From NCBI RefSeq assembly GCF_021245725.1, contig NZ_JAJGSX010000006.1:310001-374000 (forward strand): a stretch of 64,000 bases of DNA. The letters run 5' to 3'. A program made the position numbers and the translations under genes. Shown one piece after another: positions 22,720 through 54,910 of the stretch. The DNA comes from Pseudonocardia sp. TRM90224. GTDB taxonomy: Bacteria > Actinomycetota > Actinomycetes > Mycobacteriales > Pseudonocardiaceae. The notes beneath the pieces were generated by a model that worked only from the letters and a program-made list of their open reading frames with translations, was not told the origin of the DNA and searched no databases. Each line of letters opens with the position of its first letter. Within the stretch, counting starts at the first letter, position 1.

Positions 22720-22790
22720 GCCGGGAGGGCAGCAAAGCCACTTTCAGGCCCTGTGAGGGCCGGAAAGTGGCTTTCCTGCCCTCCCGGCGG
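22720..22790. repeat. inverted repeat, AAAGCCACTTTC family, copy 1
   Basis: 71 bp with 27-bp arms beginning CGCCGGGAGGGCAG and one internal mismatch (CAGC versus CAGG). It lies at the convergent junction of the methyltransferase and the 22744-23319 membrane protein, whose stop codon is inside the element. It can fold as one long stem or, in part, as smaller stems around CCA and TGG loops. Confidence 0.9.
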
Positions 22791-23319
22791 AGCCGGACGC
22801 CACACACCTCACGCGCCGCCGGTAGTACGACCACGTGACGGCGCCGAGGAGGGGCCCCCACAGCGTCAGTGGGAGGTAGCAGACCGCCATGAGCGCCTCC
22901 CACCCGTTGCCGTCGGGTGCGCCGGCCTGCGGCGGGAGGAAGAACATCAGCGGCGTGGCGCCCCACATCACGGTGAGGGCGATCGCGCCGAACGTGGCGG
23001 GGACGACCGCCGCCATCGGTGGGATCCGCCGGCCGCCGAGGCCCGGCACCCGGCGCGGCACCACCTCGCCCCACGGCTGAACCAGGCCGAGGGCCAGCAG
23101 CGCCAGCCCTTCGGCGAGCAGCGCGAGCCCGAGCAGGTAGGCCTTCTCGTGCAGGTCGTCGGTGGCCTGCTGGTAGAGGGTCGCGTCCCAGCCGATGGGG
23201 ATGGCGAACACCCACGCCAGACGCCACAGCGCGGTGGGCAGCGTCAGCAACGGGATGACGTGCGCCGCGCGGACGGCCCATCGCGGCGGCGCTTGCACCC
23301 GGGTGGTCAGGACGGTCAT
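22744..23319 (-). CDS. hypothetical four-helix membrane protein
   Basis: 191 residues from ATG 23319, with GAGGAG upstream. Four hydrophobic segments are seen (about 21-45, 62-84, 98-126, 143-165), with WDATLYQQATDDLHEKAYLL between the first two. The last 12 or so residues (AGKPLSGPHRA) are encoded by the inverted repeat at 22720-22790, so the protein's natural end is set by the repeat. It is divergent from the MFS gene at 23475. No family was recognised; DoxX-like or DUF3995-like proteins have a similar layout. Confidence 0.75.
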   Translation of the reverse strand: MTVLTTRVQAPPRWAVRAAHVIPLLTLPTALWRLAWVFAIPIGWDATLYQQATDDLHEKAYLLGLALLAEGLALLALGLVQPWGEVVPRRVPGLGGRRIPPMAAVVPATFGAIALTVMWGATPLMFFLPPQAGAPDGNGWEALMAVCYLPLTLWGPLLGAVTWSYYRRRVRCVASGSAGRAGKPLSGPHRA

Positions 23320-23370
23320 CGGCTGCTCCTCGGTCTCGGCTGCCGCTCAGCGTTGCGGCCGGGACCGTGC

Positions 23371-23447
23371 TCGCCCTCCCCGCAGCGGGGGAGGGCGATC
23401 GCCCGTCGAGGGGACGCGGGCTGGACCTTCCCCCTTGGGGAAGGTCC
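23371..23447. promoter_or_regulatory. two tandem perfect hairpins in a divergent promoter gap
   Basis: Hairpin 1: TCGCCCTCCCC (23371-23381) with GGGGAGGGCGA (23388-23398). Hairpin 2: GGACCTTCCCC (23423-23433) with GGGGAAGGTCC (23437-23447). Both stems have 11 perfect pairs, and they lie between the starts of the membrane protein (23319, minus) and the MFS gene (23475, plus). They could be operators, or transcript hairpins affecting translation of the MFS gene, whose GGGGGAGG ribosome site is 16 bases further on. Confidence 0.6.
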
Positions 23448-23474
23448 ACGCTCGGCCCGACGGGGGAGGTCACC

Positions 23475-24707
23475 ATGCGATTGAGCGCATACGTCATCGA
23501 CCGACGGCCACTGCGGATCCCGGCGTTCCGCCGCCTGTGGACGGCGTCGGTGGTGTCCGCGGTCGGCGGTTCGTTCAGCCTCATCGCCGTGCCGACGCAG
23601 GTCTTCACGCTCACCGGCTCCTCGGCCGCCGTGGGCGTCTCGGCGACGGTGTCGATGTGCGCGCTCGTCGTCTCGGCGCTCTGGTCCGGCGCGTTGGCCG
23701 ACGCCATCGACCGCAGACGGTTGTTGCTGGCCGGCAACGGCGGGCTGGCGCTGGCCTACCTCGGGCTGTGGCTCAGCTCCGTGCTCGGGGTCGCGACGCT
23801 CCCGGTGCTGCTCGTGCTCGTCGCGCTCCAGGGCGTCGGTTTCGGCGCGACCATGACCGTGACGGGCGCGGCGGTTCCCCGCGTGGTGCCGAACGACCAG
23901 CTGGTCGCCGCCAACAGCCTCAGCGCCCTGACCCGCTACACCGGCGCGGTCGTGGGTCCGCTGCTCGCCGGCGTGCTCATCCCCGTCGTCGGGCTCGGCT
24001 CGCTCTACCTGTTCGACGCGCTCGCGCTGGGGGCCGTGCTTTGGGCCACGGCCAAGCTGCCGGCGATGCCGCCGCGCGGGACCGGCGCAGAACGCTCGCT
24101 CCGCCACGGCTTTCGCTACCTCGCCGGGCAACGGGTGCTGGTCGCGATCCTCGCCGTCGACCTGGCCGCGATGGTGCTCGCCATGCCCGTCGCGCTCTTC
24201 CCGGAGCTGGCCGAGCGCAGCTACGGCGGCCCGGCCGGCGGCGGCGTCGAGCTCGGCCTCCTGTTCGCCGCCTACCCGACCGGTGTGCTGCTCACAGGAC
24301 TGTTCTCGGGGACGTTCAGCCGAGCGCGGCGGCATGGTCGGCTCATGGCGTCCGCCGCGATCGTCTGGGGCTGCTGCGTCGTGGTGCTCGGCCTGGCGAC
24401 CGCGTTGCCGCTCGCCGTCTTGGCGCTGGTCGCCGGTGGCGCCGTCAACTTCGTGCTCAGCACGTTCCGCAACGCCATCTCGCAGGCCCACACCGACGAC
24501 GCGCTCCGCGGCCGGATCCAGGGCATCCTCACCATTGTGCTGATGGGTGGTCCGCAGCTGGCCAACGTGGTGCACGGGTTCGCGGGCGCCGCCATGGGCG
24601 CCCGCTGGGCGGTCGGCGTCGGGGGAGCGCTCACAGTTCTGGCCGTCGCATTGCTGGTGTGGGCCGTGCCCGAGCTGTGGCGCTACGACAGCGAATCCAC
24701 CGGCTGA
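23475..24707 (+). CDS. MFS exporter (EntS-like)
   Basis: 410 residues. ATG 23475 is chosen because GGGGGAGG precedes it. The protein shows the family opening PAFRRLWTASVVSAVGGSF, motif A as GALADAIDRRRLL, and about 12 membrane spans. The C-terminal half carries NFVLSTFRNAISQAHTDDALRGRIQGI, the block typical of the enterobactin-exporter (EntS) subgroup. It probably exports a siderophore-like or drug-like molecule. It is convergent with the TetR gene (3-bp gap), while the hairpins upstream may regulate it. Confidence 0.88.
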   Translation: MRLSAYVIDRRPLRIPAFRRLWTASVVSAVGGSFSLIAVPTQVFTLTGSSAAVGVSATVSMCALVVSALWSGALADAIDRRRLLLAGNGGLALAYLGLWLSSVLGVATLPVLLVLVALQGVGFGATMTVTGAAVPRVVPNDQLVAANSLSALTRYTGAVVGPLLAGVLIPVVGLGSLYLFDALALGAVLWATAKLPAMPPRGTGAERSLRHGFRYLAGQRVLVAILAVDLAAMVLAMPVALFPELAERSYGGPAGGGVELGLLFAAYPTGVLLTGLFSGTFSRARRHGRLMASAAIVWGCCVVVLGLATALPLAVLALVAGGAVNFVLSTFRNAISQAHTDDALRGRIQGILTIVLMGGPQLANVVHGFAGAAMGARWAVGVGGALTVLAVALLVWAVPELWRYDSESTG

Positions 24708-24710
24708 CCG

Positions 24711-25367
24711 TCACGGCCGCCAGCCGGCCGGCTTCTCCGGCGAGAAGTACGCCTCGAACATCTCGAGCGCCGGCGCGGCGAGCGGGGCGAAGCGCGCCTC
24801 ACCCGGCCGGGCGTGCTGGTCGTTGCCGAGCTGGAGCGACGAGATGCCGGCGCTGAGGGCGACGAGCAGGCTGGTGCCGCGCTCGGTACCCGCTGCCGGG
24901 TGCAGTTCGCAGCGATCGATGGCTGCCGCGACCGCGCTCGCGATCACCTCCTGCACCTCCAGGCTGGGACGGTAGGCGCGCTCGGACGGCTCGAAGCCGG
25001 GCACCGCGGGGAAGAACAACAGCTGGGTGAGCGCGGGGTCCTCGACCGTGAACGTGATCGAGGCGGTGATGATCGCGCGGAGCGCCGGCAGCCCCGGGGC
25101 GTTCGCCGCAACCGCTGCACGGACGAGTTCGAGGTGCTGGTTCATGCCTCGCTCGAAGAGCGCGTCGTATATGGCCAGGCGGGAGTCGAAGTACTGGTAG
25201 AGCGACGGCTGGCGAAGCCCCACCCGACGGGCGACCTCGGACATGTTCAGCGCACCGGCGCCGAGCTCGCCGATGACGGCCAGCGCGACATCGAGGATCT
25301 CCTCGCGGGTCCGCCTGCGCTGCCGTTCGCGCGGTCCGGGCGGCCGATCGACGACGTCAGTCACCAC
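24711..25367 (-). CDS. TetR-family repressor
   Basis: 218 residues from GTG or ATG near 25367. The N-terminal helix-turn-helix reads RTREEILDVALAVIGELGAG, then MSEVARRVGLRQPSLYQYFDSRLAIYDALF. The C-terminal domain contains TVEDPALTQLLFFPAVPGFEPS, typical of the WHG-type ligand domain. It is divergent from the SRPBCC-hydrolase operon with a 67-bp AT-rich, dyad-containing gap, so it most likely represses that operon and itself. Confidence 0.9.
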   Translation of the reverse strand: MVTDVVDRPPGPRERQRRRTREEILDVALAVIGELGAGALNMSEVARRVGLRQPSLYQYFDSRLAIYDALFERGMNQHLELVRAAVAANAPGLPALRAIITASITFTVEDPALTQLLFFPAVPGFEPSERAYRPSLEVQEVIASAVAAAIDRCELHPAAGTERGTSLLVALSAGISSLQLGNDQHARPGEARFAPLAAPALEMFEAYFSPEKPAGWRP

Positions 25368-25434
25368 TACACCATAGACGACGCTATACCCTATCTGTTT
25401 AACTATGACCTATAGGGGAGTTCGAGGAGGGGTC
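25368..25434. promoter_or_regulatory. divergent promoter with two dyads (candidate TetR operator)
   Basis: This 67-bp gap is the most AT-rich spot in the area. It contains ATAG-ACGACG-CTAT (25374-25387) and CCCTAT (25389-25394) paired with ATAGGG (25412-25417). Such dyads between a TetR gene and its divergent target are the standard operator position. The ribosome site GAGGAGGGG for the plus gene follows. Confidence 0.6.
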
Positions 25435-25932
25435 ATGCAGCGGTTGGGACGCGATGAGGTGCAGCGCCACGTGGTGGCTCAACCGCTGCAGGTCTACGAG
25501 CTCGTCTCGGACGTCACCCGCACGCCGACATGGAGCCCGCAGGTGATCGACTGCTCGTGGCTCGACGGCGCCACCGGCCCCGCCGTCGGCGCGCGGTTCG
25601 TCGCGCGCAACAAGCTCCGCTGGTTCGTCTGGTCCAACAGGCCGGTCGTGGAAGTGGCCGATCCCGGCCGCGAGTTCACGATCTGCCGCACCGAACCGGG
25701 CGGTGGCAGCATCCGGTGGGCCTATCGCCTGCTTCCCGAGGCAGGCGGAACCCGGGTGGCGCTGAGCTACGAGGTGCTGCAGACGGTGCCGCTGGGCCTG
25801 CACATCGTGCTGCGAGTGCTGTTCGGCGTCCGCGACCTCCAGGCCGACCTGCACGCCAACATGGTCACCAGTCTCGACCGGATCGCCGAGCTGGCGACGG
25901 CTCAGCGCGCCACGGCCCCCGACGTCCCATGA
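25435..25932 (+). CDS. SRPBCC (START-like) protein
   Basis: 165 residues from ATG 25435, with GAGGAGG upstream. The family pattern is present: VAQPLQVYELVSDVTRTPTW, then SWLDGATGPAVGARFVARN, PGREFTICRTEPGGGSIRWA and VALSYEVLQ. The fold forms a hydrophobic cavity for lipids or aromatic ligands, and members include polyketide cyclases. The stop overlaps the start of the next gene by four bases (ATGA), so the two products are co-translated. The related gene at 60993 has the same SWLDGA block. Confidence 0.87.
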   Translation: MQRLGRDEVQRHVVAQPLQVYELVSDVTRTPTWSPQVIDCSWLDGATGPAVGARFVARNKLRWFVWSNRPVVEVADPGREFTICRTEPGGGSIRWAYRLLPEAGGTRVALSYEVLQTVPLGLHIVLRVLFGVRDLQADLHANMVTSLDRIAELATAQRATAPDVP

Positions 25933-26795
25933 CCGGCGCCGGGACCGTCGTCGCCAACGGCGCCGAGCTCTACCACGAGGTCCGTGGGGCGGGTCCGACG
26001 ATCCTGTTCATCTCCGGGGCGACCGGTGACGCCGGCCAGTGGGACGCCGTCGCGGACCTGCTGTCCGACGACTACACGGTGCTGACCTACGACCGACGCG
26101 GCAACTCGCGCAGCCCACGTCCACCGGCCTGGGGCAGCGCCCCGATCGGGGAGCAGGCCGACGACGCAGCGGCGCTGCTCCGAGCGCTCGGGCTCGCACC
26201 TGCGATCGGCTACGGCAGCAGTCAGGGTGCGATGGTCCTGACCGCGCTCGTCCTGCGGCACCCCGAGGTGCTCTCCGCTGCGGTGTTCCACGAGCCGCCC
26301 TACGCAGGCGCCCTGCCAGCTGCCGATGAGATCCGCGGCGGTCTGCAGCAGCTGGTCGGCGCTGCGATGGCGGAGGGCGGTCCTGCGCTCGCGACCGAGC
26401 GGTTCCTGCGCTGGGTGGGTGGGGACGCGGCCTTCGAGGCGATCGATCCGGCCACCCGCTCCCGGATGCTCGGCAACGGCGAGGTGCTGTTCGGAATGGA
26501 GATCGGAGGAGTCTCCGCGTACCTGCCCGCGCAGCAGGAGCTGGCCGCGGTGCGTACCTGTTGTGTTGTCGCGGCAGGGGCCGAGCACCGCGCTGCCGAC
26601 GCACCCTTCCACTGGTTCCACGACGCGTCGCGCTGGCTCGCGGATCGACTGGGCGCGCCGCTCGTCGAGCTGTCAGGGGGACACCTTCCGCAGCTCACCT
26701 GCCCGCAGGCGCTCGCGGCGGAGCTGCGCGACCTGTGCGAGCAGATGCGCGCGTTCCGCACGCGAGGGCAGGAAAGCCACTTTCCTGCCCTGTGA
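25929..26795 (+). CDS. alpha/beta hydrolase
   Basis: 288 residues from ATG 25929, overlapping the SRPBCC stop. The nucleophile elbow is GSSQG with Ser98; the oxyanion region reads ILFISGATGDAGQW; the catalytic His lies in LSGGHLPQL near residue 262. It hydrolyses an ester, lactone or C-C bond of an unknown substrate, perhaps one carried by the SRPBCC partner. The last ten residues (RGQESHFPAL) and the stop come from the inverted repeat at 26765-26821. Confidence 0.88.
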   Translation: MTGAGTVVANGAELYHEVRGAGPTILFISGATGDAGQWDAVADLLSDDYTVLTYDRRGNSRSPRPPAWGSAPIGEQADDAAALLRALGLAPAIGYGSSQGAMVLTALVLRHPEVLSAAVFHEPPYAGALPAADEIRGGLQQLVGAAMAEGGPALATERFLRWVGGDAAFEAIDPATRSRMLGNGEVLFGMEIGGVSAYLPAQQELAAVRTCCVVAAGAEHRAADAPFHWFHDASRWLADRLGAPLVELSGGHLPQLTCPQALAAELRDLCEQMRAFRTRGQESHFPAL

Positions 26796-26821
26796 GGGCC
26801 GGAAAGTGGCTTTGCTGCCCT
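26765..26821. repeat. inverted repeat, AAAGCCACTTTC family, copy 2
   Basis: 57 bp. The left half AGGGCAGGAAAG-CCA-CTTTCCTGCCCT is itself a perfect palindrome; the right half GGGCCGGAAAG-TGG-CTTTGCTGCCC is its near-inverse. It lies at the convergent end of the hydrolase and NTF2 genes and encodes the last residues of the hydrolase. Confidence 0.9.
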
Positions 26822-26866
26822 TTCCGGGGTCACCCCCGCCCCCGGCTCCCGACGCACGTCGAGTGG

Positions 26867-27340
26867 TCATTGCGGTGCCAGGACGGGTGGTTTCGTGCGG
26901 GCCTGCGCGTGCAGGCGCGCCCAGAGGTCGTCGAGCTGGCCGCGCAGGCGGGCGAAGCGCAGGTGGTCGACATAGTCGCGGGACTCCACGATCTCGCCGT
27001 CGCGCACCCGCATCACGAACACGCACGGCACCGCGAACGCCTCACCCGTCTCCGGGTGCGTCCCCGCGTAGGAGAACTCGGCGACGATCACCTCGGGGTC
27101 GGCGGTCTCGTGGACGACGATGTCGGCCGGCCGGACCCGGAGCCGCGCCACCTGCGCCAGCTCGGGCCGCTCGAAGTGCTTGCGGAGCTCGGCGCGGGTA
27201 GTCAGCGGTGGGATGCCCAGCGGCGCCATCGGGTGTCGGACGTCCGTGTGCTCGGCGTAGAGCTGCGGAAGCGCGGCCACGTCCTGGTCGGCGACGCCGT
27301 TGACCAGCTTGAGGAACACTTCTCGCGGTGAGAGTGGCAT
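26867..27340 (-). CDS. SnoaL/NTF2-like protein
   Basis: 157 residues from ATG 27340, with GGGAGA upstream. It shows the NTF2-fold opening PREVFLKLVNGVADQDVAAL, the turn YAEHTDVRHPMAPLG, and strands EVIVAEFSYAGTHPETGEAF and VMRVRDGEIVESRDYVDHLRF. Such cone-shaped proteins bind or isomerise small hydrophobic compounds. It is divergent from the TetR gene at 27425, with strong operator-like palindromes between them. Confidence 0.88.
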   Translation of the reverse strand: MPLSPREVFLKLVNGVADQDVAALPQLYAEHTDVRHPMAPLGIPPLTTRAELRKHFERPELAQVARLRVRPADIVVHETADPEVIVAEFSYAGTHPETGEAFAVPCVFVMRVRDGEIVESRDYVDHLRFARLRGQLDDLWARLHAQARTKPPVLAPQ

Positions 27341-27353
27341 GAGATCTCCCGAT

Positions 27354-27395
27354 ATATTCGGAGTAGAGACTCCGAATATAGGGAGTCGTCACTCC
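27354..27395. promoter_or_regulatory. tandem palindromes, likely TetR operators
   Basis: Site 1 is ATATTCGGAGT-AGAG-ACTCCGAATAT (27354-27379), a perfect 11-bp dyad. Site 2 is GGAGT-CGTC-ACTCC (27382-27395), sharing the GGAGT/ACTCC core. They fill the gap between the NTF2-like gene and the TetR gene, so the TetR product probably binds here and controls both. Confidence 0.75.
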
Positions 27396-27424
27396 GGTTG
27401 TCGAGAGAGGGAGGCACGACGAGC

Positions 27425-27970
27425 ATGCGCGCGGACGCCCGGACCAACAGGGCCCGGATCCTCGACGCGGCCGAGGCCGTGTTCGCCGAGGGCGGCGACG
27501 CCGCGTCCACCGAGGAGGTCGCGAGCCGAGCCGGCGTCGGGATCGCCACGGTGTTCCGGCACTTCCCGACGAAGCCGCAGCTGCTGGAGGCCGTGCTGGT
27601 CGGGAGGCTGGAGCGGCTGCGCGATCAGGCGGCCGCGCTCGTCGACGGGCTCGAGCCGGGCTCCGCGTTCTTCGACTTCTTCGCCACCCTCGTCGAGGAC
27701 GCCGCCGGCAAGATCGCCATCGCCACCGCGTTGAGCGAAGCGGGCGGCGGGGCCGCGCCCGAGGCCACGCGGGCGTCCGGCGAGCTGCGTGCTGCCGTGG
27801 GAAAGCTCCTGGAGCGCGCGATCGAGGCCGGTGCCGTCCGAGCTGACGTGGAGCTGCCGGAGGTCTACGCGCTACTGGTCGGGGTGTCGCGGGCGGCGGT
27901 GTACACGGCGCTCGACGCGAACGTCCGCGACCGGATGCTCGCGATCGTGTTCGACGGGCTGCGGGCATAG
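27425..27970 (+). CDS. TetR-family repressor
   Basis: 181 residues. ATG 27425 is preferred to the upstream TTG at 27398 because GGGAGG lies between them. The helix-turn-helix region is RILDAAEAVFAEGGDAASTE, then VASRAGVGIATVFRHFPTKPQLLEAV. The C-terminal domain is of the SbtR/TetR_C type with FFDFFATLVEDAAGK. It most likely represses the divergent NTF2-like gene through the palindromes at 27354-27395. Confidence 0.9.
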   Translation: MRADARTNRARILDAAEAVFAEGGDAASTEEVASRAGVGIATVFRHFPTKPQLLEAVLVGRLERLRDQAAALVDGLEPGSAFFDFFATLVEDAAGKIAIATALSEAGGGAAPEATRASGELRAAVGKLLERAIEAGAVRADVELPEVYALLVGVSRAAVYTALDANVRDRMLAIVFDGLRA

Positions 27971-27981
27971 ACCGGAGGTGC

Positions 27982-28613
27982 CTACCCGCCGATCGGCTTT
28001 TCGATATCGGCCCGCATCGCTCGCAGGAGCTTGGCCAACTCGGCCGTTGTCGTGTCCGGCCCGGTGATGATCTGACCGAAGGTCGTCTGGGCCTGGAACT
28101 GCGTCCGGGGCGGCCGAGCTGCGCATGTCGGCGAGGTCGACGACGATCGCCAGCCGACAACGAAGATCGGGAGCGCCAGACCCGTCAGGCCGATGAACGG
28201 CCAGGGTCTCGGCGCGTTGCGGGCGATGAGCCAGATCGGCAACGCGGTCAGGAAGGTCGTCGCGCAAGGAGGAGCGAGAGCCGTCCGAATTCTTCGGAGA
28301 CGGGCTTGATCGGTTCGGGGTCACCGGCCGCCAGAGTGTTGATGTAGAGCACCAGCAGGACGACCCCGATCACCACGGCCTATACGAGCGATGCCAGTAG
28401 TGCTCGACCGTAGTTCGTGGTCCGGATCGGCTGGCGGGGATACGACGGCGTGCCGGGATAGGGCGGCTGGCCGGGATGCGCCGCGTAGCCAGGGGCGAAT
28501 CCTTGTGGCGGATAGGGCGGGTGGCCGTAGGGCGGCTGGCCTGGATGAGGTGGCATCGGCCGCCGGGGTGCGAACCCGCCAACCGAGGGTCGGTGATCGT
28601 CAGGGCGGTTCAT
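27982..28613 (-). pseudogene. proline-rich membrane protein, broken by a stop and a frameshift
   Basis: From ATG 28613 the protein begins NRPDDHRPSVGGFAPRRP, then a Pro/Gly/Tyr-rich tract (PPHPGQPPYGHPPYPPQGF), then NYGRALLASLV. There a TAG (about 28382) interrupts a membrane segment that continues VVIGVVLLVLYINTLAAGDP. Near 28265 the frame must shift to read LTALPIWLIARNAPRPWPFI and GLTGLALPIFVVGW. A last segment FGQIITGPDTTTAELAKLLR ends at 27982. Three membrane spans are thus split by two lesions. It resembles actinobacterial Pro-rich DUF-type membrane proteins. It is probably inactive. Confidence 0.65.
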
Positions 28614-28691
28614 GGCCGGCGACCTTTCGCCGATGCGGACCGTTGCCAACGGCACGCTATGCATCGGCACCCCGAACCACATGAGTAGCCG

Positions 28692-29891
28692 CTACCTGCT
28701 TCGCGCCGCCCGCACCGCGCCCCGGCCTGCCACCGTCGCGACGATCACCTGTCCGGTGGCGGCGACGCACATCAGCAGGATCGGGGCCTGCCAGCCGGCG
28801 CTGACGGTGTGCAGCAGCCCGAACACCACCGGCCCGACGGCGGCCAGCAGGTAGCCGATCGACTGCGCCATCGCCGACAGCGCGCCGGCCGTGGCAGCGT
28901 CGTGGGCGCGCAGGCTGAGGAAGGCCAGTGCCAGTACCAGACACGCGCCACCGCCCAGCCCGAGCACGACGCTCCACAGCAGTGCCCATCCCGGCGCCAC
29001 GAGCAGCCCGAGGTAGCCGGCGAGCAGGATGGCCGAACTCACCGCGGCCAGCAGCCGCTGGTCGCGCGCCCATCGCAGCACCGCAGGCACCGCGAGGCTG
29101 GTTGCGACCGCGACCGCCTGGAACACGAACAGCAGCCAACCGGCCGCGGCCGCGCTCACCCCGCTGTCCTGGAGCACCTGGGGCAACCACGTGACGACGA
29201 CGTAGAAGCCCAGCGACTGCAGCCCCATGAACGCCGTGACAGCCCACGCCAGCGGTGACGCCCACGGCAACCTGTGCCCGTGCGCCGCGGCCGTGGCCGG
29301 CCGCGGCGCATTCCGCACCTGGGGCAGCCACAGCACGACGGCCACCAGCGCGAACACGACCCAGCCGCCCAGCGCGGTGCTCCAACCACCAGGGGCAACC
29401 TGGCTGACCGGCACCGCCACCCCGGACGCCACGGCGGCGACCCCGCCCATCACGGTGGCGTACGCGCTGGTCAGCAGCCCCACCCTGGTCGGGAAGTCGC
29501 GCTTGATCAGGCTCGGCAGGATCACGTTGCCCACCGCGATCCCGCCTCCGATCAGCACCGTTCCGCCGAACAGGCCGGCCGTCGTCGGCACCCACCGGAC
29601 CGCGATCCCGAGCGCCAGCACCACGAGCGCACCCCCGAGCAGCCGCTCCGGCCCCCACCGCGCGGCCAGCCGCGGAACCATCGGTGAGATCGCCGCGAAA
29701 GCCAGCAACGGCACGGTGTTCAACAGACCGGCCGCCGCGGGCGCCAGCGCCAGATCGGCCTGCACCTGATCCAGCAACGGCCCGACGCCCGTCAGGCTCG
29801 CCCGCAGGTTCGCAGCCACCACCAGCAGGCCCCACACCAGCAGCGCCCGACCGGAGCGTGACCTCCTACCCACCACCTCGTGCGTGTCCAT
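28692..29891 (-). CDS. MFS transporter, CynX/NimT type
   Basis: About 399 residues; ATG 29891 or the in-frame GTG 29900. It begins with RALLVWGLLVVAANLRASLT, whose NLR is typical of the CynX/NimT subgroup (cyanate and nitroimidazole transporters), then VGPLLDQVQADLALAPAAAG. There are 12 membrane spans; the second half has SLGFYVVVTWLPQVLQDSG. The natural substrate is unknown. It is divergent from an XRE regulator (102-bp gap), its likely controller. Confidence 0.88.
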   Translation of the reverse strand: MDTHEVVGRRSRSGRALLVWGLLVVAANLRASLTGVGPLLDQVQADLALAPAAAGLLNTVPLLAFAAISPMVPRLAARWGPERLLGGALVVLALGIAVRWVPTTAGLFGGTVLIGGGIAVGNVILPSLIKRDFPTRVGLLTSAYATVMGGVAAVASGVAVPVSQVAPGGWSTALGGWVVFALVAVVLWLPQVRNAPRPATAAAHGHRLPWASPLAWAVTAFMGLQSLGFYVVVTWLPQVLQDSGVSAAAAGWLLFVFQAVAVATSLAVPAVLRWARDQRLLAAVSSAILLAGYLGLLVAPGWALLWSVVLGLGGGACLVLALAFLSLRAHDAATAGALSAMAQSIGYLLAAVGPVVFGLLHTVSAGWQAPILLMCVAATGQVIVATVAGRGAVRAARSR

Positions 29892-29993
29892 GCTCGCCAC
29901 GATCGAGGCACCCGGTGGCGATCAACCAGGCCGAGCTCAGGCTGGCCCTCGTCGGGACACCCTTAGCCGCGGTAACCGGCATACGCTCGAAGG

Positions 29994-30830
29994 ATGGGTT
30001 CGCCGTTGGGGGACTTCCTCCGCGCCAAGCGCGACAGCATCCAGCCGGGATCCATCGGCCTGCCCGACCGCGGCCGCCGCAGGGCACCCGGCGTGCGCCG
30101 CCTGGACGTCGCCGAGCGGGCCGGCATCAGCGTCGAATACCTGACCCGCATCGAGCAGGGCCGCGACCGGCGTCCCTCGCCGGCCGTCACGAAGGCGCTC
30201 GCCGACGCGCTCGGCCTCGATGCACCGGAACGCAACCACCTGAGCTACCTCGCGAAGATCACCGGCGGGGAGTGCTCCGCCCACATCCAGCCCGTGCCGC
30301 CGGGCCGGACCGTGCGATCCTCCGTGCTGGAGACGCTCCGCCTCCTCGAACCGGGCATCGCGGTCGTGACCAACCGGCTGGGTGACGTGCTCGCCCACAC
30401 CAGCGGCTACGCGTCGATCACCAGCGGGACCGGGCTGCTCGACGCCGACCCCCCGAACCTCACCCGCTACGTCTTCACCGACCCGCGCGCGCGGACGTTC
30501 TTCATCGACTGGGCCGACGTCGCCGACGAACAGGCCTTCGACCTGTGGCTCGTCCCGTCCATCGAGAACTCCGAGTGGCTCACCGCCGAGCTCACGCCCG
30601 TCGCCGGCCCCGATTTCACGCAGCGTCTGAAGCGCCACGTCGTGCCGCCGCGCGGCGTTCTCCGGCTCCGGCACCCGGCGGGGCCCGAGCTCCACCTGCA
30701 CCGCGAGACCCTCGAACTCCCCGCCGACGACCAGCAGCTCGTCGTCTTCCACCCCACCGACGACCGAACCGCGCACGCGGTGACCCAGCTCGGCCGGGAG
30801 CGCGGCGGCCGGCTCCGGTCCATCTCGTAG
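29994..30830 (+). CDS. XRE-family regulator with MmyB-like ligand domain
   Basis: 278 residues. The N-terminal helix-turn-helix reads RLDVAERAGISVEYLTRIEQGRDRRPSPAV (residues 36-65). From about 105 onward the MmyB-like PAS-type domain begins, with LLEPGIAVVTNRLGDVLAHT, then RYVFTDPRARTFFIDWADVA and VLRLRHPAGPELHLHRETLELP. In relatives this domain may bind a fatty acid or other small molecule. It is divergent from the CynX-like transporter and probably controls it. The ATG has GAAGG just upstream. Confidence 0.88.
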   Translation: MGSPLGDFLRAKRDSIQPGSIGLPDRGRRRAPGVRRLDVAERAGISVEYLTRIEQGRDRRPSPAVTKALADALGLDAPERNHLSYLAKITGGECSAHIQPVPPGRTVRSSVLETLRLLEPGIAVVTNRLGDVLAHTSGYASITSGTGLLDADPPNLTRYVFTDPRARTFFIDWADVADEQAFDLWLVPSIENSEWLTAELTPVAGPDFTQRLKRHVVPPRGVLRLRHPAGPELHLHRETLELPADDQQLVVFHPTDDRTAHAVTQLGRERGGRLRSIS

Positions 30831-30921
30831 CCGTCGGACCCGGATCGAGTACCCGACTACTCGGGACCGGGGCCGGGCGCGACCAGATACTCGGACCTCC
30901 AGGAGGACTGGAGCGCTGATC

Positions 30922-32097
30922 ATGAGTGAGATGCTGGTCAACACGACGACGGCAGGGCTGCAGCACCAACCAGCGGTGGCGTCCTTCGCCGGGACCCACT
31001 TCCTCGTCGTGTGGGCGGACGGCAGCGACGCGACGATCAAGGGGCAGATCGTTCGCTCGGACGGCGTCCGCAGCGGTGGCGAGTTGACGGTCAGCGCCCC
31101 GGCCGCGAACAACACCGACCGCCGGCTGCCGACCGTGCGCAACATCGGGTTCGGGCTGGTCGCCGCGTGGGTGGAGCGTGCGTTCACCAACCCCGGTCCG
31201 CGCCCGCACGTGAAGCTGCGCAGGTTCGACCAGGATGGACGGCCGATCGGCGCCGAGATCCAGGTCAGCACCGCCGACGTCGATCCGGAGCACCGGCCCG
31301 CCCTGGTGAACCTCGTCGACGGCGGCTTCCTGGCCGTCTGGGTCGACCCGCGCCCCGACCAGCGGATCCGGGCGCAGCGCTTCACCAGCAGCGGGGTGAG
31401 GACGGGTGCGGAGTTCACCGTCACCACCACGGCCGGATTCCACACCGGCCCGACCTGTGTGCCGCTGGAAGGTGGGAACTACGTGGTCGCGTGGCGCAGC
31501 GATCCGGCCGCGGTCGGCGGCGGCGCGCTCCTCTTCCGCGTCTTCGACCTCGCGGGCACACCCCAGTCGGCCGAGCGGCCGGTGAACCTCTTCGGGTTCG
31601 GCGGCGGCAAGGCCTTGGCGCTGCTCGACACGGGGCGATTCGCCCTCGCCCACATCAGGAACGGGACGATGAGCGACATCGGGGTCCAGCGGAGCACCGT
31701 GGAGGCCACGGTGTTCCGCCCCGATGCGACGGAGGCCGGGATCGCGTTCGCGGCCAGCTCCGGGCAAGGCATCAACTGCTCGTCGCCGGCCATCGCGGCG
31801 CTGCCCGGGGGACGTTTCGTCGTCGCGTGGATGCAACGAAGCGCCGAGACGTTCGCCACCACTCCGGTCGTCAAGGCCAGGGCGTTCTCCGACAGCGCGG
31901 GGCCGGTCGGCGCGGAGGTCCAGGTGAGCACGTCGACAGCGGCCGACCGGGCCGGGACGTGTGCGGCGTCGACCTTCGGCTTCGGCGGCGAGGCCGTGTT
32001 CGTCGGCTGGAGCGACAACGCGGGTGGCGACGACAGCTCGGACTTCGCGGTTCGCGGGCGGACACTCCCGGTCTCCGGGCCCGGCGGGCTCGCCTGA
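30922..32097 (+). CDS. beta-propeller-like repeat protein of unknown function
   Basis: 391 residues, no signal peptide. The chain repeats a module of about 50-60 residues built on strands such as FLVVWADGSDATIKGQIV, GLVAAWVERA, GGFLAVWVDPRPDQRIRAQR, GNYVVAWRSDP, GGRFVVAWMQRS and AVFVGWSDN. Each pairs a hydrophobic V-x-W strand with an arginine-containing outer strand, followed by a xxGAEIQVST-type phrase. The pattern is that of beta-propellers or related sheet repeats seen in cyanobacterial and proteobacterial surface proteins. Export would need a non-Sec route, since no leader is visible. The start has AGGAGG upstream. It stands alone. Confidence 0.75.
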   Translation: MSEMLVNTTTAGLQHQPAVASFAGTHFLVVWADGSDATIKGQIVRSDGVRSGGELTVSAPAANNTDRRLPTVRNIGFGLVAAWVERAFTNPGPRPHVKLRRFDQDGRPIGAEIQVSTADVDPEHRPALVNLVDGGFLAVWVDPRPDQRIRAQRFTSSGVRTGAEFTVTTTAGFHTGPTCVPLEGGNYVVAWRSDPAAVGGGALLFRVFDLAGTPQSAERPVNLFGFGGGKALALLDTGRFALAHIRNGTMSDIGVQRSTVEATVFRPDATEAGIAFAASSGQGINCSSPAIAALPGGRFVVAWMQRSAETFATTPVVKARAFSDSAGPVGAEVQVSTSTAADRAGTCAASTFGFGGEAVFVGWSDNAGGDDSSDFAVRGRTLPVSGPGGLA

Positions 32098-32168
32098 CCC
32101 CGAGATTTGGCGTCAGTTCTGCCGGAGGTCGTATCGACGCCGGCCGCGAGCCCGGGGCCCGTCCCGAC

Positions 32169-32813
32169 TCACCCTCCGAGGAACCACAGGACGGCGAGGA
32201 CGCGCCGGTTGTCGTCGTCCGACGTCCCCAGCCCGAGCTTCATGAAGATGCTGGCGATGTGCTTCTCGACCGCGCTGTAGGTGATCGAGAGGCCCTGGCT
32301 GATGGCCCGGTTCGAGCGGCCCTGCGCTACGAGGACCATCACGTCGCGCTCGCGAGGGGTGAGCGTGGTGAGCCGTTCCCGTTGTCGGGTCGCGCCGAGC
32401 AGCTGGCGCACCACCTCCGGGTCGAGCGCCGTGCCGCCGGCCCCGACCCGGTCGAGGGCGTCGCTGAACGCCGCGACGTCGCTGACGTTGTCCTTGAGCA
32501 GGTAGCCGACCCCGCCCGCGGACGAGCCGAGCAACTCGCTCGCGTACCGCGCCTCGACGTACTGCGAGAACACGAGGATCGCCGTGGCGGGATGCTCCGC
32601 CTTGATCCGGATCGCGGCGCGGAGACCCTCGTCGGTGTGCGTCGGTGGCATGCGGACGTCGACGATCGCGACGTCCGGGCGGTGCTCGGCCACGGCGTCG
32701 AGCAGCGTCTCCGCGTCGCCCACGGCTGCGGCGACCTCGTGGCCGCGGTCGGTGACCACCTCGACGAGCCCGGCCCGCACGACGAACGAGTCCTCGGCGA
32801 TCACGACCCGCAT
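32169..32813 (-). CDS. NarL/LuxR-type response regulator
   Basis: 214 residues from ATG 32813. The receiver domain has acidic residues in VVIAEDSF and the phospho-acceptor Asp52 in VAIVDVRMPP, with the Lys in YLLKDNVSD. The LuxR helix-turn-helix follows at about 148-205 (LTPRERDVMVLVAQGRSNRA, then SAVEKHIASIFMKLG). It shares one base with the stop of the upstream histidine kinase gene (TGATG), so the two are a coupled two-component pair. Target genes unknown; the peptidase in the same operon is one possibility. Confidence 0.93.
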   Translation of the reverse strand: MRVVIAEDSFVVRAGLVEVVTDRGHEVAAAVGDAETLLDAVAEHRPDVAIVDVRMPPTHTDEGLRAAIRIKAEHPATAILVFSQYVEARYASELLGSSAGGVGYLLKDNVSDVAAFSDALDRVGAGGTALDPEVVRQLLGATRQRERLTTLTPRERDVMVLVAQGRSNRAISQGLSITYSAVEKHIASIFMKLGLGTSDDDNRRVLAVLWFLGG

Positions 32814-34114
32814 CAGGCGTTCCTCGGGCCAGGGGTCTCCGTCGGCAGCACGACGGTGATGGTTGTGGGTCCACCGCCGGGGCTGTCCACGTCGATGGCG
32901 CCGTCGACCGCCGACACCCGCCCGTGGAGGCCGTCGAGGCCGGCGCCGACCCGGACGCCCGCCCCGCCGCAACCGTCGTCGCGGACGTGCAGGCGCAGCC
33001 CGGGGCCGTCGGCGGCGAGCCGGATCGAGGCCCGCTGCGCGCCGCTGTGCTTCGCCACGTTCGTCAGCAGCTCCGCAGTGCAGAAGTAGACGATCGCCTC
33101 GATCGCGGGGGAGGGCCGTTGCGGAAGCTCGACCGACAGGTCCGTCGGGACGGGGCTGCGCGCGGCGAGCGTGGCCAGCGCCGCCGGCAGGCCGGCATCG
33201 AGGATCGGTGGGTGGATGCCGGCGATGAGGTCGCGCAGATCGGTGATCGCCGAGCGGGCGGTATCGAGCGCGGTGTCGACGAGGGTGCGGACCCGCCCGA
33301 CGTCGACGGTGTCGGCCGCCAGCTTCTCGCTGGCCAGGCCGAGCTTCATGGCCACCGCGACGAGCTGGGCCTGCGCTCCGTCGTGCAGATCGCGTTCGAT
33401 GCCGCGCAGGCGGACCTCGGCACCGTCGACGACGGCCGCCCGGCTGTTCTCCAGCTCGTGCACCCGCTCGGCCAGCGCGGACGGTCCGAGCAGCCAGCAG
33501 GTGAGCACCGCGTCGAGCGCCAGCACCGGGCGGAGCACCCACGGCGCGACGAGGATCATCACGACGCCCTGCGCCACGAGCAGCGCCATCTCCGGCCACG
33601 TGTCGAAGACGATGTCGCCGTACCGGATCAGGAACGGGTGCGGCACGAACCCGGCGGTCGGCGGAGCCGGCGCCTGCCCGAGGTCCCGCAGCAGCGGCGA
33701 GAGCACGAGGACCGCCCCGCCGACCCGCGTCCCGACCGCCACCACGAACGCCGCCACAGCCAGGGGGAACCGCAGCAGGAAGTAGGCGTGCGCGCGCCAG
33801 CCGCCGGTGTCGCGCAAGCCCGCGCCGATCCACAGCAGGAACCCGCGACCGGCGGGGACCGGCGGCGCCGGCCCGTCGACGGCTACACCCAGCAGCGCCC
33901 GGGAGAGCGCCCGGTGGATCGCCCCGAGCTGACGCGCCCCACGCACGGCGAGCGCCAGCAGCGGCAACCCGACGAGCGTGGCGACCAGCACCCCGGCAGC
34001 GGTCACCGAGAGCACGCTGAAGAGGAACCCGGCCAGGCCGAGCGGCAACCCGACCAGCGCATAGCCGAACTCCGCCCACGATCGCGCGGTGAACGGTTCC
34101 CTCAGCAGCGTCAT
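32813..34114 (-). CDS. sensor histidine kinase (HisKA_3 type)
   Basis: 433 residues from ATG 34114. The N-terminal region (residues 15-205) has several hydrophobic segments of the DUF-type sensor seen in actinobacterial kinases. The dimerisation/phosphoacceptor helix is RGIERDLHDGAQAQLV with His244; the ATPase domain has the N-box TAELLTNVAKHS, then LRLHVRDDGCGGAG and GLDGLHGRVSAV. It phosphorylates the co-encoded response regulator. Its start overlaps the stop of the upstream lipoprotein hydrolase by four bases (ATGA). Confidence 0.93.
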   Translation of the reverse strand: MTLLREPFTARSWAEFGYALVGLPLGLAGFLFSVLSVTAAGVLVATLVGLPLLALAVRGARQLGAIHRALSRALLGVAVDGPAPPVPAGRGFLLWIGAGLRDTGGWRAHAYFLLRFPLAVAAFVVAVGTRVGGAVLVLSPLLRDLGQAPAPPTAGFVPHPFLIRYGDIVFDTWPEMALLVAQGVVMILVAPWVLRPVLALDAVLTCWLLGPSALAERVHELENSRAAVVDGAEVRLRGIERDLHDGAQAQLVAVAMKLGLASEKLAADTVDVGRVRTLVDTALDTARSAITDLRDLIAGIHPPILDAGLPAALATLAARSPVPTDLSVELPQRPSPAIEAIVYFCTAELLTNVAKHSGAQRASIRLAADGPGLRLHVRDDGCGGAGVRVGAGLDGLHGRVSAVDGAIDVDSPGGGPTTITVVLPTETPGPRNA

Positions 34115-35631: not shown

Positions 35632-35783
35632 GGATCTCAATGAACGCGACCGGCGTCGTCAGCACATTGCCGCTGTCCTCAGAAATCGGTACTGAGGTTG
35701 TCCCCAATGTCCGTTGCGACGTTCGGGTAGTGCCCGGCTCCGCACCGGGGGGTTGAGTCGATCACGTGCGATGGTCGTTGACC

Positions 35784-40828: not shown

Positions 40829-40845
40829 CCAGGCAGGGCGTAGGG

Positions 40846-41577: not shown

Positions 41578-41623
41578 CGGAGGGCACTCCGCTTAACTGG
41601 AAATCGTAACGGAGGACCCTCCG
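41578..41623. promoter_or_regulatory. paired CGGAG-N4-CTCCG operators
   Basis: CGGAGGGCACTCCG (41578-41591) and CGGAGGACCCTCCG (41610-41623), 32 bp centre to centre, about three helical turns. Each is followed by CTT. They lie between the TetR gene and the SDR gene, so the TetR product probably binds both as dimers on one DNA face. Confidence 0.7.
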
Positions 41624-41649
41624 CTTCATCGTACGGGGACAGGACCACC

Positions 41650-42591
41650 ATGACCACGTCAACTCGCATCACCACACCGTTCGACCGGAGCTCCACGGCG
41701 GCAGAGGTCGTCGCAGGCATCGATCTCGGCGGCAAGCGGGCGGTCGTGACCGGTGCCGCGTCGGGCATCGGCATCGAGACCGCGCGTGCGCTGGCCGCTG
41801 CGGGCGCCGAAGTGACGCTCGCCGTGCGCAACCTCGACGCCGGCAAGGCGACGGCCGACGACATCGTCGCCACCACGGGCAACAGCAAGATCCAGGTCGC
41901 GTCGCTCGACCTCACCGACCGGGCGTCCGTGGCCGGGTTCGTCGCCGCCTGGGACGGCCCGCTGCACATCCTCGTCAACAACGCCGGGGTGATGGCGGCG
42001 CCGGAGACGCGCACCCCGGAGGGCTGGGAGCTGCAGTTCGCGACCAACCACTTCGGGCACTTCCAGCTGGCCACCGGCCTGCACAGGGCGCTCACCGCGG
42101 CCGGTGGCGCGCGGATCGTCTCCGTCAGCTCCAGCGGGCACCTGCGGTCGCCGATCGTCTTCTCCGACATCCACTTCACCGAGCGCGAGTACGAGCCGTG
42201 GTCGGCGTACGGGCAGTCGAAGACGGCCAACATCCTGTTCGCCGTCGAGGCGACCAAGCGCTGGGCCGACGACGGCATCACCGCCAACGCCCTCATGCCC
42301 GGAGGCATCCGCACCAACCTGCAGCGGTACGTGAGCATGGAGGAGATCGAGCGGATGCGGGCCCGGATGGGAAGCTCCGACATCGTCTGGAAGACACCGG
42401 AGCAGGGCGCAGCGACGTCCGTGTTGCTGGCGACCTCACCGCTGCTCGAAGGGATCGGCGGGCGCTACTTCGACGACTGCAACGAGGCCCTGCCGAACGA
42501 GCCGGGCACGCGCACGGGTGTTGCGGCCTACGCGCTCGACGAGGACGCCGCCGCGCAGCTGTGGGACGTGACGGTGCGCACGCTCGCCTGA
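41650..42591 (+). CDS. short-chain dehydrogenase/reductase
   Basis: 313 residues from ATG 41650. The NAD(P)-binding motif is VTGAASGIGIETARALAAAG (residues 34-53); the NNAG motif reads LHILVNNAGVMAAPE; the catalytic Ser is in VSVSSSGHL, and the Tyr and Lys are in AYGQSKTAN. It resembles the retinol-dehydrogenase/oxidoreductase SDR subgroup. The substrate is unknown. It is probably induced when the divergent TetR leaves its operators. The repeat at 42594 begins two bases after its stop. Confidence 0.9.
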   Translation: MTTSTRITTPFDRSSTAAEVVAGIDLGGKRAVVTGAASGIGIETARALAAAGAEVTLAVRNLDAGKATADDIVATTGNSKIQVASLDLTDRASVAGFVAAWDGPLHILVNNAGVMAAPETRTPEGWELQFATNHFGHFQLATGLHRALTAAGGARIVSVSSSGHLRSPIVFSDIHFTEREYEPWSAYGQSKTANILFAVEATKRWADDGITANALMPGGIRTNLQRYVSMEEIERMRARMGSSDIVWKTPEQGAATSVLLATSPLLEGIGGRYFDDCNEALPNEPGTRTGVAAYALDEDAAAQLWDVTVRTLA

Positions 42592-54010: not shown

Positions 54011-54397
54011 TCACCCGTGCAGGGTAACCGCCAACGCATCGTCCACGCTCGGGTACAGCGGGATGATCTGCTGGAGGTTCATCGCCTCCCACGGCCGGGT
54101 GACGGGCCGGTGGTCGGCCGGCGCGACGACCCGCACGGCCACATCCGTCCCGGTGCCGCCCTGCGCGGGCGCCGAGGCTCTCGTCGCGATGTTGGCCAGC
54201 ACCCCGAGGCCCGACGAGCCGAGGAACTCGACGTCGCTCAGATCGATGACGACGGCGTCGAGCGCGGCGTTGCCCAGCGCGTCGTCGACGGCCGCCATCA
54301 GCGCCGGCGCGGTGTGCAGGTCGAGCTCACCATGCACTGCGACCACCACGGCGGAGCCGGCCGAAGACGTGGGTACGGCGGTGGTGGAGATGCTCAT
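54011..54397 (-). CDS. STAS-domain anti-sigma-factor antagonist
   Basis: 128 residues; ATG 54397 or an upstream GTG 54415. The STAS core reads AVVVAVHGELDLHTAPALMAAVDD, then AVVIDLSDVEFLGSSGLGVLANI, where the Ser in FLGSSGLG is the phosphorylation site of SpoIIAA-type proteins. It would bind a RsbW/SpoIIAB-like kinase to free a stress sigma factor. No partner gene is nearby, as is common for these in Actinobacteria. Confidence 0.9.
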   Translation of the reverse strand: MSISTTAVPTSSAGSAVVVAVHGELDLHTAPALMAAVDDALGNAALDAVVIDLSDVEFLGSSGLGVLANIATRASAPAQGGTGTDVAVRVVAPADHRPVTRPWEAMNLQQIIPLYPSVDDALAVTLHG

Positions 54398-54463
54398 CGG
54401 CGTCGGTTGACCTGTCACGTCGGGCACGGTAGCGCGTCGAGCGGATCTCGGCCGGATCGAGGA

Positions 54464-54748
54464 ATGCCGGAGATGTTTGGGCCCCGGGACGGCGCGGGTA
54501 CTTCCCGGGCGATGCGCGACGGCACTACTCCAGACGACGGCCCCGCCGAGATGGCGGCTGCCGACGTCCGGCGTCTCTTCGAAAAGCTTCCCGCTTTGCA
54601 GAAGGTCGTCGAAGTGGCCGAGGCCGCCGCGGTCGACCTCTTCCCTGGGTGGCGGGCGACGCGGCCCCCGCCCGGCCGGCCGCGGCGCACCATCAACCTC
54701 CAGCGCCCGATCGTGCACGGACCACAGTCAGGTTCGTCGCAGACCTGA
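54464..54748 (+). CDS. small hypothetical protein
   Basis: 94 residues from ATG 54464 (ATG 54512 would give 78). It carries an amphipathic helix pair, AADVRRLFEKLPALQKVVEV and AAAVDLFPGW, then a Pro/Arg-rich tail (RPPPGRPRRTINLQRP). No ribosome site is obvious. It is divergent from the STAS gene and followed by two repeat elements. The helical part has realistic composition, so it may be real, but no family was recognised. Confidence 0.4.
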   Translation: MPEMFGPRDGAGTSRAMRDGTTPDDGPAEMAAADVRRLFEKLPALQKVVEVAEAAAVDLFPGWRATRPPPGRPRRTINLQRPIVHGPQSGSSQT

Positions 54749-54755
54749 CCTGCGC

Positions 54756-54820
54756 CCGTCGAGAACGACGTTGCCGCTGACCTGGGGCAGGCAATGCAGC
54801 GACAACGTCGTTCTCGACGG
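54756..54820. repeat. inverted repeat, GTCGACAACGACGTT family, copy 3
   Basis: Left arm CCGTCGAGAACGACGTTG, right arm CAACGTCGTTCTCGACGG, with additional CCGCTG/CAGCG pairing inside. It lies just after the small gene ending at 54748 and 32 bp before an AAAGCCACTTTC-family element, so two repeat families stand side by side here. Confidence 0.9.
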
Positions 54821-54851
54821 ATTCCAGCGACTCAAGGCCCCTGGGGTCGGG

Positions 54852-54910
54852 GAGGGCAGGAAAGCCACTTTCCTGCCCTGTGAGGGCCGGAAAGTGGCTT
54901 TGCTGCCCTC
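54852..54910. repeat. inverted repeat, AAAGCCACTTTC family, copy 5
   Basis: GAGGGCAGGAAAG-CCA-CTTTCCTGCCC, TGTGA, then GGGCCGGAAAG-TGG-CTTTGCTGCCCTC. It is nearly identical to the copies at 26765 and 38893. It lies 29 bp downstream of the kduD stop (minus) and so could end that transcript. Confidence 0.9.

Follow-up and report, generated by a model that had tools for sequence, protein, structure and literature searches.

The repeat found in the window, the whole 64,000-nucleotide stretch of Pseudonocardia sp. TRM90224 that was analysed, belongs to a family of 59-bp palindromes spread across this genus of soil bacteria. With a confidence somewhat better than even, its members are regarded here as Pseudonocardia-specific selfish or semi-selfish palindromic DNA elements, which share features with REP dimers/REPINs and with the Rickettsia palindromic element (RPE) and which would be moved or rewritten by a trans-acting factor. 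How REP- and RPE-like palindromes spread, and why they are still palindromic, is an old puzzle. For this question the family offers a rigid recognition-like frame, contrasting copy numbers in neighbouring species and copies in conserved genes that are comparable across species.

Copies in the window

With at most one mismatch, 23 matches to GGGCAGGAAAG were counted in the window where 0.55 would be expected, and none of 100 shuffles contained 23 or more. All seven copies of the preliminary description (five close ones and two variants) were found again, with coordinates right within a few bases, and six of them share the frame AAAGCCAC-N25-GTGGCTTT with at most one mismatch. Gene boundaries given here are those of codon-usage-based gene calling, not of an annotation.

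The copy at 12586–12644, a family member with one mismatch to the frame, is flanked by two minus-strand genes and lies directly downstream of an E1-like gene (12675–15470, minus strand). It had been taken for a standard terminator with a T-tract; no T-tract exists within 12 bases of either end, and a terminator scan of 12400–12800 was empty. The copy at 22725–22783 overlaps the 3′ end of a called gene (22744–23319, minus strand) convergent with 22038–22697 (plus strand), and the one at 26764–26822 encodes the last codons (QESHFPAL) and the stop of an alpha/beta-hydrolase gene (25929–26795, plus strand) convergent with 26867–27319 (minus strand). The member at 38893–38951, of the type common in this genome, is located in the tandem gap 38737–39009, and that at 40846–40904, with a reverse-complement interior, in a convergent gap between 39992–40828 (plus strand) and 40948–41514 (minus strand). 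The copy at 54852–54910 lies in the gap 54397–54940 with a minus-strand gene on each side, directly downstream of the 3′ end of 54940–55707 (minus strand). The seventh, at 38766–38822, is of the direct-repeat (C) type: its halves are each self-complementary and equally oriented, it matches the inverted frame only with four mismatches, and its predicted long fold (−33.3 kcal/mol) is nearly equal to that of two hairpins (−32.2 kcal/mol). In addition, a degenerate eighth copy (D type, two mismatches) is present at about 21227–21285, with an intact right half followed by a AGGTGAATCGCCGCAG tail. The in-frame copies in proteins, the spacing fixed across species, the compensated arms and the likeness within genomes, all described below, lay beyond the earlier window-only view.

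Architecture and distribution of the family

The unit is the palindrome CAG-N-A-NN-GCCAC-N25-GTGGC-NN-T-N-CTG, whose frame is invariant; the remaining positions vary, yet mostly stay complementary. The spacing is nearly as rigid: in 1.17 Mb of this genome (C1 and C70) all 67 matches have N25 and none any other spacing from N15 to N40, while in relatives, each place taken once, N25 was found at 82 of 84 distinct places and N45 at the other two, with none else within N10–N60. Close pairs of halves comprise 36 inverted (+/−) ones and a direct-repeat minority of four (+/+); in the 567 + 590 half matches a perfect half is tallied on both strands, its reverse complement differing by three bases. That the element can form either one long hairpin or two short ones, as proposed earlier, holds for the main type of this species. 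Among alleles taken at fixed places, both halves are self-complementary over five pairs in only 3 of 17 at smc and 1 of 13 between prfA and prmC, so that the feature common to all is the single long palindrome.

In this genome 498 places fit one search pattern and 420 a second (reversed-pattern control: 0), counts which at one mismatch or less overlook diverged copies. Within the genus, 32 of 62 genomes contain matches, 24 of them at least 17 copies, and the other 30 none. Among 397 genomes of the order, 20 outside the genus have one or two one-mismatch matches compared with 13 for the reversed control, and the interiors of the matches in these 20 pair at 0–7 of 11 positions against 4–10 in family alleles; the exact 15-mer occurs outside the genus in three genomes with one or two copies each. 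A single 65-base query to each of a plasmid and a phage collection returned no match. Viral contigs yielded 22 stretches with the plain pattern, which were set aside: none has both CAG and CTG, their GC content ranges from 0.39 to 0.63, and they look unrelated, often being low-GC hairpins. The sole match of Rfam covariance models in the window at gathering score was a tRNA.

The invariant frame, the rigid spacing and a density of about one copy per 19–22 kb in this genome would all suit recognition by a protein that organises the chromosome or regulates genes and that binds as a dimer to CAG.A..GCCAC half-sites separated by about three helical turns. Nevertheless, this appears highly improbable: a protein that binds the duplex needs no complementarity of the variable positions, which is mostly kept, and closely placed species differ widely in copy number, with 117 in G276 but 1 in G321 and 0 in G300, and 73 in G229 but 2 in G322 and in G330; among neighbours, G313 likewise has 21 copies and G323 has 1.

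Placement at gene ends

In a sample of 1.254 of the 9.38 Mb of this genome, 77 of 79 copies are intergenic, although coding sequence makes up 88 % of it. Convergent gaps hold 31 copies against 13.7 expected, and 28 of the 37 copies in tandem gaps are closer to the upstream stop. Divergent gaps contain nine copies, compared with 19.7 expected by length and 13.5 by gap number; the latter difference is not significant (p 0.11). A location mostly where genes converge, as first described, does not hold for the window, in which three of seven copies are convergent (22720, 26765 and 40846) and four tandem; in this larger sample, convergent gaps are strongly favoured. Copy number and placement bear out, more firmly than the window alone allowed, the earlier idea that these palindromes form a dispersed family of REP/MITE-like type located at the ends of genes, and 498 places and a convergent bias exclude the contrary case of a few randomly placed copies.

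This enrichment at convergent and 3′ ends, together with the folds predicted for RNA of the window's seven copies (−33 to −58 kcal/mol), would fit a host 3′-end device, i.e. a bidirectional terminator lacking a U-tract or a stabiliser of mRNA 3′ ends, which is under selection, undergoes compensatory change and is occasionally homogenised by recombination. Such a device is considered unlikely. No U-tract follows the hairpins, and the elements are absent among the four terminator-like sites of 22600–42000 (3.6 in shuffles); a T-tract terminator was rejected, there being no T-tract and, in the two stretches scanned, no terminator call at the elements. Moreover, 30 of the 62 genus genomes do without any match, and copies lie in places where a terminator would be harmful, both in the prfA-prmC gap and within smc, BCCP-like, nadB, CobN-like, NRPS and PKS genes.

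Copies inside proteins

All 12 internal copies, from seven distinct sites at loci chosen regardless of frame, read QESH...ESGFP. Two further internal copies in the QESH frame came from a frame-biased search; the loci L251 and L255, reached by a search with the peptide itself, were omitted from the frame count. One candidate, L259, classed as internal in frame 0 with four mismatches, was discarded as a chance match. Copies that overlap called gene ends (18 rows) use all three frames (8/3/7). SMC, BCCP-like, NadB, PTS, NRPS and PKS proteins contain residues, in linkers and loops, that such short palindromes have added. Of 30 genomes read, 17 have the SMC hinge insert, always at one position, and the gap between prfA and prmC is filled in 13 of 30.

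Covariation of the arms

At smc, 84.2 % of 476 cells in 17 alleles are paired, 16 of 28 pairs are altered on both sides, and 60 cells have changed on both sides as against six on one. The 13 alleles between prfA and prmC are similar, with 86.0 % of 364 cells paired and 54 two-sided versus 10 one-sided changes. Covariation amounts to 0.290 at smc (0.108 when shuffled, 0.030–0.101 with slid partners) and to 0.375 at prfA-prmC (0.143 and 0.049–0.117, respectively); none of 500 shuffles reached the observed value at either place, in a test that inflates covariation for related sequences.

The changes lead mostly from one Watson-Crick pair to another; G.U pairs are few and, on the transcribed strand, not clearly more frequent than A.C. 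We therefore infer that it is the palindrome as DNA, in a hairpin or cruciform fold, that counts. As to the host 3′-end device, the mismatched states are divided: prfA-prmC has a slight excess of G.T (15 versus 11 A.C), which speaks for it, whereas smc has none, the excess there being on the side of A.C (34 versus 8 G.T).

Template switching, too, could produce compensated arms, with no dedicated factor involved. According to this explanation, the palindromes would have arisen or spread once and been maintained since then by template switching or by repair on a hairpin template, and likeness among copies of one genome would reflect recombination or exchange between strains. Template switching has been described as giving rise to compensatory changes of several bases (PMC8794818) and has been proposed for palindromes in coding regions of nematomorph mitochondria (PMC6649704). 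Even so, only a small chance is given to it, since hundreds of copies and a fixed recognition-like frame are left unaccounted for; the alleles considered next bear on it as well.

Likeness within genomes

In the nine genomes having both alleles, and with junction-checked alleles, the distance between the smc and the prfA-prmC copy of one genome is 9.3 of 59 versus 17.8 in permutations, none of 20000 being as low; two of the nine (G122 and G281) show no such likeness. G302 carries the ATGGCCAC arm type at both smc and prfA-prmC, and G308 the CTTTGACG type at both. Correction from arm to arm has no means of producing identical new arms at unlinked sites, which is a further argument against persistence without a dedicated factor. 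Unlinked copies within a species being usually more alike than copies at the same place across species, a process that keeps spreading or rewriting copies is indicated.

In close pairs of genomes the copies at the same site are the most alike (smc: one difference between G316 and G306, two between G271 and G309). Two sister species that are 94.4 % identical share five sites, three nearly the same and two with other arms. At a place with one element in G271, its sister G309 has two elements and a gene between them, an arrangement in favour of recombination without a dedicated factor. The prfA-prmC site is filled in G271 and empty in G309, with GTGA flanks on both sides, the one filled/empty pair encountered; no clean new insertion was caught. 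This difference was first taken for an insertion, a view given up because genomes far removed also carry the element there. It may be a loss, although G297 and G237, close by, lack the element like G309, so that either direction may apply. Since the smc and prfA-prmC sites are common to distant species, there is room for a host function, and this also counts in favour of a 3′-end device.

Search for a mobilising gene and proposed mechanism

PF01797 (Y1, RAYT/IS200-like) has no match in this genome, which is 96.7 % complete, and a Y1/RAYT link was rejected for it. In the genus, five of 62 genomes possess a Y1 gene: G281 with 96 copies of the element, G319 with 24, G104 with six, and G300 and G181 with none. 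Of the 24 genomes with at least 17 copies, 22 lack Y1, the exceptions being G281 and G319. A sample of 1344 proteins encoded near copies disclosed no recurrent mobilising gene or transposase in its best 25 clusters; beyond orthologues of G271/G309 and two pairs which this genome shares with G276, the one conspicuous gene there was smc, and smc itself contains the element.

For the favoured interpretation as selfish or semi-selfish DNA, we infer a trans-acting factor which would read the CAG/GCCAC frame, copy elements to new sites and overwrite old ones, either by transposition or by ectopic conversion that the hairpin sets off. The predicted factor would, in this genome, be something other than the usual RAYT/Y1 transposase. 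Selection would then leave copies where they are least harmful, behind stop codons and in protein linkers, and those at gene ends may secondarily protect or end transcripts. A more specific version is put forward tentatively, as possible rather than probable: a RAYT-independent system of Pseudonocardia, for which the CAG/GCCAC frame and the constant length of the arms would mark the folded 59-bp hairpin, might rewrite copies in place with the current arms of the lineage, including those inside conserved genes such as smc. If true, a loop of the conserved protein SMC would be repeatedly re-edited by a selfish hairpin. Because no RAYT was found in the richest genome and neighbouring species contrast in copy number, the mover can be sought by comparison of gene content.

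Comparison with known systems

Intrinsic terminators and terminator-like repeats resemble the family in their strong hairpins at 3′ ends, many of them between convergent genes; the Pseudonocardia element differs by its missing T-tract, its in-frame intragenic copies and its symmetry at the DNA level. With REP, BIME and REPIN sequences it has in common a high copy number, a mostly extragenic location, inverted dimers, a position mostly downstream of coding regions and some intragenic members; some REP-type sequences are inside genes, encoding 20–30 amino acids (more than half of such dimers or groups). In contrast to these, the 17 + 13 aligned alleles contain no invariant GTAG or CGTC tag columns, the stem is much longer with a rigid N25, and no Y1 transposase is present in this genome. 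The words Actinobacteria, Mycobacterium and Streptomyces are absent from the main text of the REP/BIME/REPIN paper.

Coding palindromes of nematomorph mitochondria are likewise inverted repeats kept inside protein genes; they are scattered and differ in position, whereas Pseudonocardia has one dispersed family with a shared motif (PMC6649704). RPEs are reported as palindromes of 105–146 or about 150 bp which occur between genes and in frame in many unrelated proteins, each with a conserved peptide (PMC10969869, PMC2229807). Compared by description, RPEs and the coding palindromes of Wolbachia are alike to the family in having both intergenic and in-frame copies, one preferred frame and a conserved peptide. 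The Pseudonocardia element is distinguished from RPE by its 59 bp, its high-GC actinobacterial host and its invariant frame and spacing. Furthermore, RPEs are reported to lose repeat identity over time (PMC6649704), while the Pseudonocardia arms are mostly complementary even inside smc and resemble each other within a genome.

Copy number and range of the palindrome family

The dispersed palindrome family claimed in the preliminary description is real and genus-wide, and it occupies coding as well as non-coding DNA. In the window the 25-base motif occurs 23 times against 0.55 expected, far above chance, and at least one stretch of Pseudonocardia sp. MH-G8 carries it as well. The exact 15-base core GGAAAGCCACTTTCC has 419 + 402 occurrences in the window's genome (9.38 Mb, high GC), compared with 0 for a reversed-pattern control. 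The constant part of the element throughout the genus is AAAGCCAC-N25-GTGGCTTT, found with at most one mismatch at 498 places in this genome and in 29 of the 62 genus genomes; it is better described as CAG-N-A-NN-GCCAC-N25-GTGGC-NN-T-N-CTG, with 420 places and 32 of 62 genomes. By the latter pattern 24 of the 62 genomes carry at least 17 copies (e.g. 129 in G308, 117 in G276, 96 in G281 and 81 in G324) and eight carry 1–6, with sharp differences between neighbouring species of an only partly resolved tree.

An order-wide sample of 397 genomes gave 21 with matches, namely the window's genome and 20 others with one or two each; against these 20 outside genomes, the reversed control matched 13. 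Of 11 interior positions, 0–7 are paired in the matches outside the genus versus 4–10 in 30 family alleles. The exact 15-mer was present in three genomes outside the genus in a family-wide sample, with one or two copies each. Viral contigs (L270–L291) were rejected as carriers: their matches to AAAGCCAC-N25-GTGGCTTT lie in hairpins of unrelated, often low-GC contigs and lack the full CAG..CTG frame; the plain pattern alone is not diagnostic. In four contigs of the window's genome (C2, C13, C20 and C23) an element lies less than 200 bases from the start; the repeat may thus interrupt the assembly.

Anatomy and folding

Close pairs of cores in 800 kb lie exactly 30 bp apart and are mainly inverted (36 +/− versus 4 +/+). 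In 1.17 Mb of the window's genome 67 matches have the N25 spacing and none any other from N15 to N40; in relatives, with one count per place, N25 was found 82 times, N45 twice and the rest of N10–N60 not at all. The long fold is more stable than the two-hairpin fold in all seven window copies, by a margin of just 1.1 kcal/mol at 38766. The earlier proposal of one long or two short hairpins holds for the main type of this species, but few of the alleles have both halves self-complementary (three of 17 at smc, one of 13 at prfA-prmC).

A mini-hairpin, GTGCG-N3-CGCAC (e.g. C1:122350, 341018 and 515296), lies within 80 bp of a core in 18 of its 24 occurrences in 800 kb (contig C1 of G000, loci L032–L071), in 13 of those 18 exactly 22 bp before it, giving the composite a BIME-like look. 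The D-type copies (window 21278–21293; C1:228971, 233107, 483521, 665003 and 665090) possess a tail like AGGTGAATCGCCGCAG together with tens of bases of further common sequence and are a mosaic of repeats.

Placement relative to genes

Placement was analysed for 79 copies (at most two mismatches) and the gaps between called genes in 1.254 Mb of the window's genome. All but two of the copies lie in or at the edge of intergenic gaps, the others being one inside smc and one at a contig start. The suspected enrichment at convergent gene ends was confirmed, with 31 copies in convergent gaps, a number reached by none of 5000 simulations; the expectation from gap length is 13.7. Divergent gaps hold nine copies, versus 19.7 expected by length (p 0.003) or 13.5 by gap number (p 0.11). 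In tandem gaps the upstream stop is the nearer in 28 of 37 copies (medians 56 and 126 bp). The window copy at 26764–26822 provides the end of a hydrolase gene, QESHFPAL plus stop.

Copies inside proteins

Internal copies are read in the frame QESH...ESGFP in 12 of 12 cases at seven distinct sites; 11 come from loci of relatives picked with the 15-base core or, in the case of L031, with the 25-mer, and one is the smc copy of the window's genome. Two further copies, found by peptide search in L251 (a PKS) and L255 (a PTS protein), were left out of this count. A second stop-free frame, RKATF..., was found solely at called gene starts, and in 18 cases of a copy overlapping a called gene end all three frames are used; many of these ends may be gene-caller errors.

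Pfam and NCBIfam place most of the inserts in loops or interdomain stretches. They separate HPr from the EI N-terminal domain, the iron-sulphur from the cysteine-rich domain in an FAD oxidase, the FAD from the C-terminal domain in L-aspartate oxidase (nadB), the condensation from the adenylation domain in an NRPS, and DH from KR in a PKS. Others lie in the hinge of SMC, ahead of the biotinyl domain of a BCCP-like protein (just below the family cut-off), ahead of the domain of a DMFA2-like protein, and within a CobN-like protein. Linkers of NRPS and PKS megasynthases with elements in frame are found in L169:171-5717 (genome G306) and L251 (the window's genome).

In the survey of smc in 62 genomes 30 were read, 7 had no smc match and 25 with a match were left out. 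The hinge insert occurs at the identical place and frame in 17 of the 30, every one of which carries at least 17 copies. A shorter hinge loop is present in G299, G317, G285, G312, G169, G332 and G181, and the palindrome is absent from the hinges read in G229 (73 copies), G322, G330 and G323. G300 (L229), a genome with no copies, has a short hinge stretch QKSGSPDLG, possibly what is left of a decayed insert. In G192 (L247) the hinge place used elsewhere by the family is occupied by a palindrome unrelated to it, with arms of about 20 bp.

Complementarity of the arms

At fixed places the arms vary between species yet mostly pair, in 84.2% of cells for the 17 smc alleles and 86.0% for the 13 prfA-prmC alleles. 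Two-sided changes affect 16 of 28 pairs at smc and likewise 16 of 28 at prfA-prmC; one-sided versus two-sided changed cells number 6 versus 60 and 10 versus 54, respectively. At both sites the covariation score is higher than in any of 500 shuffles, and slid partners fall clearly below it; the slid partners are the safer control, since shuffles overstate covariation for related sequences. On the transcribed strand G·T versus A·C counts are 8 versus 34 (smc) and 15 versus 11 (prfA-prmC), i.e. no clear G·T excess, with a surplus of A·C in smc. Judged from these alleles, the feature kept would be a DNA palindrome and not an RNA hairpin. This is not proof, because double changes can also be produced in a single step by template switching (PMC8794818).

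Likeness within genomes, gain and loss

In the nine genomes with both, the smc and prfA-prmC copies differ at 9.3 of 59 positions, versus 17.8 for permuted genomes (0 of 20000 permutations as low), even with one copy in coding and the other in non-coding DNA. Exceptions are G122 (24 differences) and G281 (18). The mean same-site distance among these genomes is 17.8 for smc and 20.0 for prfA-prmC. Close relatives have site-specific smc alleles in common (G316/G306 differ at one position, G271/G309 at two).

The sister species G271 and G309 are 94.4% identical across 163 kb aligned and have five sites in common in about 200 kb, three with the same or nearly the same element and two with other arms. 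At the junction of prfA and prmC (NCBIfam) G271 carries an element, while the site is empty in G309, where both genes overlap by GTGA. Thirteen of 30 loci read are filled here, those of distant genomes included, which would point to losses; but G297 and G237, both close by, have empty junctions, and we lean that way without certainty. In L194 (G313) and L203 (G323) another hairpin, GTGCGCGGA...TCCGCGCAC, lies in this gap. Elsewhere in G309 (L180:700-2000) a 327-aa gene without Pfam match is flanked by two elements, both with an interior similar to that of the window's genome. At this place G271 has one single, different element, which suggests gene gain or loss via recombination at the elements.

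Search for a driver and comparison with known systems

No Y1 transposase was found in the window's genome; the type occurs in 5 of 62 genus genomes and is absent from 22 of the 24 with at least 17 copies. Once smc and orthologous pairs are set aside, none of the gene families beside copies recurs in more than two sampled genomes. Among the matches listed in the open-licence literature (titles, abstract openings) no paper that seems to treat such a family in Pseudonocardia was found. REPs within genes (PMC3733652) and in-frame Rickettsia palindromic elements (RPEs; PMC10969869 and PMC2229807) are described. REP dimers and RPEs are the closest known systems in appearance and location. However, no RAYT was found in the richest Pseudonocardia genome and, unlike both systems, the family has a rigid frame, keeps its symmetry up inside conserved genes and consists of copies that are alike within a genome.
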